A DNA stretch of 64,000 bases from Halobellus limi (lineage in GTDB: Archaea > Halobacteriota > Halobacteria > Halobacteriales > Haloferacaceae). The notes beneath the pieces were generated by a model, which saw nothing but the letters and a program-made list of their open reading frames with translations, searched no databases and was not told the origin of the DNA. The DNA is taken from the NCBI RefSeq assembly GCF_004799685.1, contig NZ_CP031311.1, positions 2,535,355 to 2,599,354 of the forward strand, given 5' to 3'. The first letter of the stretch is position 1. Each line of letters begins with the position of its first letter. The position numbers and the translations under genes are program-made. This document shows, piece by piece, positions 11,323 through 13,176 of the stretch.

Positions 11323-12423
11323 GTGACGCGCAGCAAGCCCGCCCAGAGTGTCGTCCGATCGGTCGACGGCGAGCGTGCGGCCGACCTCCTCCAGTCGGTC
11401 CGCGACCACGAACTCCCGCCGTGTCTCCGATCGCTCGTCGCCGAGTACCAGACGTTCGAGGGCGCACGCCCGCTCTTCATCTGGCAGTGGGTGCACCGCC
11501 TCGCCCCGAAGAACACGATGCCGGTCGTCGACGCCGAGTACCGCGAGCGAGTCGCGACGAACAAGACGATGCTCGTCCTGTTCGTCACGATTCTGGACGA
11601 TCTCGTGGAAAAGAAACGGGATTACGAGACGTTCGACGCGATCACCCGGCTCGTTCGCCTCCGGGGAGGCGACACCACGCCGGGATCGATCGACGATATC
11701 ACACCGACACTCGGCGACGACATAACGTCGGGCGAGACGTACGGAGACAGCGTCGATGAGACGTACGGAGACAGCGTCGACGAGGAGTACGTGGCCTTCG
11801 CGAAGAAGGTCTGGACGACGCTCGTCGAGCGGTTGGCGGACGCGCCGCAGTACGACCGGTACGCCCCGCTCTTCCGGTTCGACGTCAGACAGGTCTGTAC
11901 CGCGATCGAGTACAGCACGCTCGTCATCGACAGTCCCGAACTGGCGACGATGGCCGATCTGGAGCGCTACGAGACGCACAATATGGGGATGCACAGTTAC
12001 CTCGACATCGACCTGATGCACGCCTCGGCCGATCACACCGGATCGCTGTCGCTGCTCCGAGAGGCCGTCGACGCCGGCCAGCGGATGGCTCGGATCGGCA
12101 ACTGGCTCAGCACGTGGGAGCGAGAGCTCAGGGAGGGCGACGTCAGTTCAGGCGTCGTCGTCGCCGCCCTCGAACGCGGCGTCGTCGATCCGGCGGAACT
12201 CCCGGCGGCCGACGGCGAAGCGGACGTCTCGGCCGAGGCCGACGGGTTGATCGACCGCATCGTCGATCACGGATTCGAATCGGAGCTACTCGAGGAGTGG
12301 AACGAGGAGCACCGACGGCTCCGCGCGCTGAGCGAGCGGAGCGATGCGGTCGACCTCGGACCGTTCGTCGAGGGGACGAAAGACGTCCTCCGGTACCACC
12401 TGGCGAGCCGCGGGTACAAGTGA
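11323..12423 (+). CDS. Class I terpene synthase-like protein
   Basis: The 366-residue product shows every hallmark of a class I terpene cyclase at the expected spacing. There is an Asp-rich motif DDLVE (92-96) ending a hydrophobic helix, and a candidate pyrophosphate-sensor Arg215 45 residues before the NSE triad. The NSE-type triad N260-x3-T264-x3-E268 sits inside GNWLSTWERELREGDVSSG. An RY pair follows at 357-358. Family knowledge says these bind the Mg2+-diphosphate of a prenyl diphosphate. The exact substrate (GPP, FPP or GGPP) cannot be told. An eight-residue repeat (ETYGDSVD twice, about 138-153) lies between the motifs. The start is GTG, about 28 bases after a TATA-like GTTTAGG, which suits a leaderless transcript. 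Confidence 0.75.
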   Translation: MTRSKPAQSVVRSVDGERAADLLQSVRDHELPPCLRSLVAEYQTFEGARPLFIWQWVHRLAPKNTMPVVDAEYRERVATNKTMLVLFVTILDDLVEKKRDYETFDAITRLVRLRGGDTTPGSIDDITPTLGDDITSGETYGDSVDETYGDSVDEEYVAFAKKVWTTLVERLADAPQYDRYAPLFRFDVRQVCTAIEYSTLVIDSPELATMADLERYETHNMGMHSYLDIDLMHASADHTGSLSLLREAVDAGQRMARIGNWLSTWERELREGDVSSGVVVAALERGVVDPAELPAADGEADVSAEADGLIDRIVDHGFESELLEEWNEEHRRLRALSERSDAVDLGPFVEGTKDVLRYHLASRGYK

Positions 12424-12429
12424 GGGGGA

Positions 12430-13176
12430 TCAGACGCCGCCGAAGCGTTCGCGCTCGCGACGACACACCCGCTCCCAGACCGACAGGAGCGAGCTGCCCA
12501 GGCCGTAGCGCTCGTCGACCGCGCGCACCCACTCGTCGTCGGTGAAGAGCAGGTACTGCAGGCGGCGGACGGTGGGGTCCAGGTCCTCGATCGCGAGATC
12601 GCCGACGTAGTACCCGACCGTCTGCGAGCGCGTCTCCGCGATCAGTTCCGGCGGGACGCCGATCCCGCACTCGGCGGCGACGTAGTCGAACCACTCCAGG
12701 TGGAGGATCGCGTCGGCGAACGCGAACCGGTCGGCGAACCCCGAGACCGACTCGATCGCCGGCGCGCCGCGGGAGACGACATCGTCGGGGCGGCTGAACC
12801 GCGGGAGCGAGACGTGGTCGATCGCCGCGGCGTACTGGTCGGCGACGCGCCTGAGTCGCCACTCGGCGTAGGCCACGGGGGGCGTCAGCGGGAGTTCGTA
12901 CCAGACCGGCGTCCACTCCAGGAAGGGGAGGCCGAAGGCGGCGTCGGCGTACAGGTCCGCGGCGATCAGTCGGTTGACCGCGGGCGCGACGTCCGCGCCG
13001 GTCCGGCCCGCCCGCATCGCCGTCTCGGCCTCGTCGATGAACCCCGGGAGGTCCCCGGTGTGAAATCCCATCCCGTCGGCGACCCGGAGCAGGTACTCTC
13101 CGCCGGGGCGGAACCAGTCGGCGAAGTCCGACGCCGTCCGTGCGCGCAGCAGCGAGAAGACGCTCACGGGAGGCAT
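12430..13176 (-). CDS. Conserved haloarchaeal-type protein of unknown function
   Basis: The 248-residue soluble protein is rich in Trp, Phe and acidic residues (WFRPGGEYLLRVADGMGF, FLEWTPVWYELPLTPP, HLEWFDYVAAECG). It has no membrane segment and no motif I can name. It converges on the terpene-synthase-like gene with only 6 bases between the stops. The annotated ATG is at 13176, but a clear TATA (tatatat, 13190-13197) lies too close to it. An in-frame GTG at 13167 (SVFSLLRART...) sits about 27 bases from that TATA and may be the true leaderless start. Confidence 0.75.
   Translation of the reverse strand: MPPVSVFSLLRARTASDFADWFRPGGEYLLRVADGMGFHTGDLPGFIDEAETAMRAGRTGADVAPAVNRLIAADLYADAAFGLPFLEWTPVWYELPLTPPVAYAEWRLRRVADQYAAAIDHVSLPRFSRPDDVVSRGAPAIESVSGFADRFAFADAILHLEWFDYVAAECGIGVPPELIAETRSQTVGYYVGDLAIEDLDPTVRRLQYLLFTDDEWVRAVDERYGLGSSLLSVWERVCRRERERFGGV

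Follow-up and report, generated by a model that had tools for sequence, protein, structure and literature searches.

A probable class I terpene synthase gene in Halobellus limi and the mainly haloarchaeal subfamily to which it belongs

Archaeal isoprenoids are known as lipids, quinones and carotenoids. An open reading frame within a stretch of 64,000 nucleotides of Halobellus limi DNA (contig NZ_CP031311.1; hereafter the window) raises the question of whether haloarchaea also encode class I terpene synthases, since a preliminary description ascribed to its product a complete set of the motifs of these enzymes. The analysis reported here, based on sequence comparison and structure modelling, leads us to conclude that the product of the gene is very probably a class I terpene synthase with an intact catalytic apparatus, representing a new, mainly haloarchaeal subfamily.

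The gene and its metal-binding motifs

The features discussed below are as follows (positions are those of the window).

11323..12423, + strand: predicted terpene synthase gene (P0001), 366 aa, GTG start
11596..11610, + strand: DDLVE, residues 92-96, putative first metal-binding motif, at the end of helix 71-96
11734..11781, + strand: two tandem 24-base units (ETYGDSVD twice), inside a low-confidence loop (pLDDT below 50 at 124-141)
11965..11967, + strand: Arg215, the sensor according to the preliminary description (Arg in 33/71)
11980..11985, + strand: Asn220-Met221, candidate linker and effector, at the break between helices 210-221 and 223-232
12091..12093, + strand: Arg257, candidate diphosphate sensor, three residues ahead of Asn260 (71/71)
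12100..12126, + strand: NWLSTWERE, residues 260-268, putative second metal-binding motif (NSE type), in helix 239-270
12391..12399, + strand: Arg357-Tyr358-His359 (Arg in 10/71, His359 in 67/71)

The open reading frame is a genuine gene and is subject to purifying selection. Comparison with six Halobellus orthologues gave dN/dS values of 0.17-0.48 and the GC3 is 0.87, which, together with the occurrence of the family in other genomes, rules out a chance reading frame. The start and the motifs of the protein are common to closely related Halobellus proteins, the closest being that of H. rarus (89% identity). The tandem 24-base units are missing in this relative, and probably represent a recent length change. 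On all five matching haloarchaeal plasmids the family gene is labelled "hypothetical protein", and none of the NCBIfam models matched the window protein or its paralogue encoded in the same genome.

All of the residues listed in the preliminary description (DDLVE at 92-96, Arg215, Asn260/Thr264/Glu268 and the RY pair at 357-358) were found in the reading frame. Their conservation was assessed in an alignment of 71 rows, in which the window protein is accompanied by 70 relatives encoded on genome contigs. In the first motif, Asp92 is kept in 69 of the 71 rows, while Asp93 and an acidic residue ([DE]) at position 96 are present in every one; Asn260, Thr264 and Glu268 of the second motif are likewise invariant (71/71 each). 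The claim of a complete motif set therefore holds for the metal-binding motifs, which are conserved in the family, and fails for Arg215 and the RY pair, whose arginines are found in only 33 and 10 of the 71 rows, respectively. The RY pair near the C-terminus is typical of bacterial enzymes without being a defining trait, and, although present in the window protein, is ruled out as a feature of the family. Two divergent family members of Candidatus Halobonum tyrrellensis (L122:5953-6927 and L124:5947-6927) carry Asn in place of Asp92 (NDLSD).

By itself, the motif pair is weak evidence and merely suggestive: a DDxx[DE] motif placed 120-190 residues ahead of N-x3-[ST]-x3-E arose in 81 of 20,000 shuffles of the window protein (0.4%). 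It is therefore conservation and fold that carry the weight of the assignment.

Predicted fold and the candidate diphosphate sensor

The AlphaFold2 model, built from the 71-row alignment, is all-alpha and has a pLDDT of 91.0 and a pTM of 0.89, with low confidence chiefly in the loop at approximately 120-141. The preliminary description had proposed that a fold other than the all-alpha terpenoid one would speak against its claim; the terpenoid fold is what the model shows. The best 50 PDB entries found with VIA-align were all class I terpene synthases (Z 20.4-22.1; rmsd 3.0-4.3 Å over 263-290 residues), among them bornyl-PP synthase (Z 22.1) and Sat1646 (Z 21.6). The top Foldseek matches were also class I terpene synthases (E approximately 2e-4 to 1e-3), with FPP and GGPP synthases among the weaker ones. 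No prenyl synthase or squalene/phytoene synthase occurred among the best 50 VIA-align entries, which is no proof against either identity, and prenyl synthases do appear in the Foldseek list.

Sequence profiles gave weaker, consistent signals. When the family profile was compared with PDB sequences, the sole match was Sat1646 (E 0.014). The window protein matched the Pfam family PF19086 (Terpene_syn_C_2) with 17.8 bits, below the curated cut-off of 23.7; its paralogue in the same genome passes this cut-off (24.4 bits, scored with neighbours in frame), and 23 of 26 family members are matched at E values of up to 1, the best being 8.8e-7. In Haloferax volcanii, PF19086 had no match. The family thus resembles the class I synthases of PF19086 in a weak but consistent profile match, and differs from them in lacking a conserved helix-G arginine and the RY pair.

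A diphosphate-sensing arginine on helix G, approximately 46 residues before the NSE motif, is typical of class I terpene synthases, though it does not define them. The spacing between Arg215 and Asn260 (45 residues) is close to the canonical 46, which explains why Arg215 was read as the sensor. Its conservation (see the list above) rules out this role, and the family as a whole lacks the canonical helix-G sensor. The residue likely to sense the diphosphate is Arg257, which is strictly invariant and lies on the same modelled helix as Asn260. There is a precedent for such a position in Sat1646 (PDB 7e4n/7e4o), whose sensor, Arg220, is located on helix H rather than helix G and acts with the linker N182 and the effector Y183 (PMC9814573). 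In the family profile alignment Arg257 is paired with Arg220 of Sat1646, and in both proteins the arginine precedes the NSE asparagine by three residues (R257/N260 and R220/N223); the NSE region of Sat1646 reads NDLASYERD (223-231) (PMC9814573).

The linker and effector are less easily placed. HMMER pairs N182-Y183 of Sat1646 with R215-Y216, beside a four-residue gap. The distance to the NSE asparagine is 41 residues in Sat1646, compared with 40 from Asn220 and 45 from Arg215, and Asn220 and Met221 are kept in 69 and 71 of the 71 rows, respectively. We favour Asn220-Met221 as the linker and effector on the grounds of this invariance and of spacing, on which the match with N182-Y183 depends entirely.

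Sat1646 and Stt4548 are actinomycete class I pimarane-type diterpene synthases that are active without a helix-G sensor arginine (PMC9814573). The window protein shares with them the fold and both metal motifs, with an identity of only approximately 16%. Another comparison is offered by the non-canonical terpene synthases of classes IB-IF, which also have a class I-type fold overlooked by ordinary homology mining; unlike the haloarchaeal family, which has both the DDxxD and the NSE motifs, these classes have neither (PMC11234867).

Distribution of the family and its gene neighbourhoods

Members of the family were found in 120 of the 391 sampled genomes of the class Halobacteria (approximately 31%), representing 39 of 86 genera. 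Further members occur in MAGs labelled Methanohalobium, Thermoplasmata, Patescibacteria, Paceibacterota, Lysobacteraceae, Anaerolineae and unclassified bacteria, labels that may be wrong. In the tree (midpoint root, SH-aLRT support only) the window gene clusters with its Halobellus orthologues (12 rows, support 100). Next to this group are relatives from SHRA6, Halovenus and Haloarculaceae, which have a BAT-cluster gene nearby, and the bacterial and non-haloarchaeal rows are set apart on a long branch.

The window gene is divergent from the type IV pilus/secretion genes T2SSE and T2SSF, and convergent with a gene at 12430-13176 (− strand). The flanking arrangement is common to most of the Halobellus relatives, H. 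clavatus differing upstream. The convergent gene, which has no Pfam or NCBIfam match, is 84-95% identical within Halobellus and is more conserved than the synthase. Neither a sensor or regulator gene nor a biosynthetic neighbour was found beside the synthase at the window locus; the window copy is a locally orphaned member of its family. The same genome encodes a bat-linked paralogue (C2:352011) and two polyprenyl synthetases, the latter away from the window locus.

Outside the Halobellus subclade of the window gene, linkage to signalling genes is frequent. A BAT-cluster regulator or a 7TM/histidine kinase lies within 3.5 kb in 54 of 82 family loci (within 600 bases in 36); these are rough counts, obtained by crude gene calling and clustering, and since the loci are related by descent, 54 is not a number of independent events. 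Among the 57 regulator candidates scanned, three of them doubtful genes that served as a check, BAT and HTH_10 domains were present in 33, HisKA in 14 and a 7TM kinase region in 8. The H. limi genome contains 24 HTH_10 genes in 3.75 Mb; we estimate that an HTH_10 gene would lie that near a random gene by chance in roughly 5-7% of cases. The arrangements vary: synthase and regulator are divergent in Halorubrum, the order is BAT-HalOD1-synthase in Haloarcula and synthase-BAT-HalOD1 in Halobaculum, and in bacteria the synthase is followed by a kinase. In a search for further biosynthetic neighbours at archaeal loci, covering 81 non-regulator genes with one per cluster, no Pfam family occurred in more than three.

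In eight bacterial contigs (L107, L112, L113, L117, L118, L120, L125 and L127) a HisKA_7TM kinase gene begins 0-29 bases after the synthase, and in L112 it is adjoined by a response regulator gene. Five of these loci (L117, L118, L120, L125 and L127) have a polyprenyl synthetase gene in the neighbourhood, L127 additionally encodes an IPP isomerase (above the curated cut-off), and a methyltransferase is present in L113 and L117. Two archaeal loci are also informative. In L103 a gene for a FIST-domain protein overlaps the start of the synthase, and SHRA6 carries a single-frame fusion of Response_reg, HalX and terpene synthase (505 aa; L055:5422-6939, identical with L010:637-2154), which was found in this one genome only. 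These bacterial and archaeal neighbours support the assignment as a terpene enzyme, and they also suggest a tie with signalling. With the fold, the metal motifs and the genes for prenyl diphosphate synthase and IPP isomerase beside bacterial relatives all in agreement, there is good support for the original proposal of a class I terpene synthase.

A cytochrome P450 gene (L088:7931-9292) and its homologue (L073:3-1244) were observed near two members, the second of these being the L073 synthase, and may point to terpene oxidation.

Proposed activity, possible role and alternatives

In the mechanism that we propose, Asp92, Asp93 and Glu96, together with Asn260, Thr264 and Glu268, would bind three Mg2+ ions, and these would in turn fix the diphosphate group of a linear prenyl substrate. 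The substrate is most likely GGPP, because this compound is abundant in archaea, with FPP as a second possibility. The diphosphate may be sensed by Arg257 on helix H, which, acting via Asn220-Met221 at the helix-G break, would close the site and bring about ionisation, leading to a cyclic or linear terpene.

Whether the product is cyclic bears on one enzymatic alternative, a non-cyclising class I enzyme of prenyl diphosphates, which converts GGPP or FPP into a linear alcohol or hydrocarbon, or performs prenyl coupling. The fold and the metal motifs cannot separate cyclisation from linear release, and FPP and GGPP synthases, which have the same fold, occur among the Foldseek matches; however, terpene synthases rank highest in the structural comparison and the second motif belongs to the NSE type, unlike the second DDxxD of prenyl synthases, and we therefore regard this alternative as unlikely. 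There is only a slim chance that the protein works downstream of a class II cyclase, as the class I member of a pair, on a bicyclic substrate similar to copalyl diphosphate. Sat1646, its only sequence match in the PDB and a protein with the sensor at the same position, does take copalyl diphosphate, as does Stt4548, but no partner matching SQHop_cyclase_N (PF13249) was found in the H. limi genome. The single match to SQHop_cyclase_C (PF13243) in this genome is a GH127-like protein in which no DxDD was seen by eye. This candidate partner (G000:C2:354331; L032:10834-12123, − strand), an alpha/alpha-toroid located approximately 1.2 kb from the paralogue, is probably not a class II cyclase: its match to PF13243 is above the cut-off, but GH127 is the Pfam family that it matches best, a UDP-glucose dehydrogenase is encoded in the same locus, and it resembles sugar enzymes of the GH127 type.

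At the level of the family, the linkage to genes for one-component regulators and histidine kinases suggests a connection between terpene output and signal transduction, the terpene being either a signal sensed by the neighbouring protein or a regulated output. We tentatively propose the former, as a possibility with less than even prospects: members of the family would produce a hydrophobic terpene that is detected by the co-encoded sensor (PAS/GAF-BAT-HTH_10 proteins in archaea, 7TM or PAS histidine kinases elsewhere), in a system common to haloarchaea and a number of bacterial lineages, from whose sensor the window copy has become separated. This hypothesis draws on the gene neighbourhoods of relatives, and the window locus itself lends it no support. 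Somewhat better prospects, though still short of even, are those of ordinary regulated metabolism, in which the product is a membrane, pigment-related or protective terpenoid and the regulators beside the relatives control expression without anything being sensed. Such a role is compatible with the enzyme assignment; BAT-type regulators with PAS, GAF and HTH_10 domains are common in haloarchaea, as the number of HTH_10 genes in H. limi illustrates, and many of the synthase-regulator pairs are divergent, an arrangement often seen between regulators and their targets. It accounts less well for the bacterial partner, which is a 7TM membrane kinase encoded directly downstream in the same orientation and not a DNA-binding regulator, or for the archaeal member fused to Response_reg-HalX. 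The same fusion, with the regulator linkage, would suit a protein that binds GGPP or FPP merely to relay their level to a partner regulator, turnover being immaterial. We consider this improbable, since the metal ligands and Arg257 are essentially invariant, which is stricter than binding alone would require, and genes for making the substrate are present in the bacterial loci.

The view that terpene cyclases are seldom described from archaea is borne out by the literature searched, and does not extend to the genes themselves, given how common the family is in Halobacteria. Searches confined to the open literature brought up no description of a class I terpene synthase from archaea, which is weak evidence of absence, and none tying terpenes to bacterio-opsin activators; the text on classes IB-IF makes no mention of archaea (PMC11234867). 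"Terpene clusters", two per genome, have been reported from genome mining of Halomicroarcula (PMC8600319), and are probably carotenoid-type phytoene synthase loci.

The presence of the family in approximately one third of the sampled Halobacteria genomes would add terpene chemistry to a whole archaeal class, and its conserved Arg257 is a candidate for a second, distant case of a helix-H diphosphate sensor. The recurrent pairing with sensors raises the question of whether these organisms use terpenes for communication or for self-sensing.
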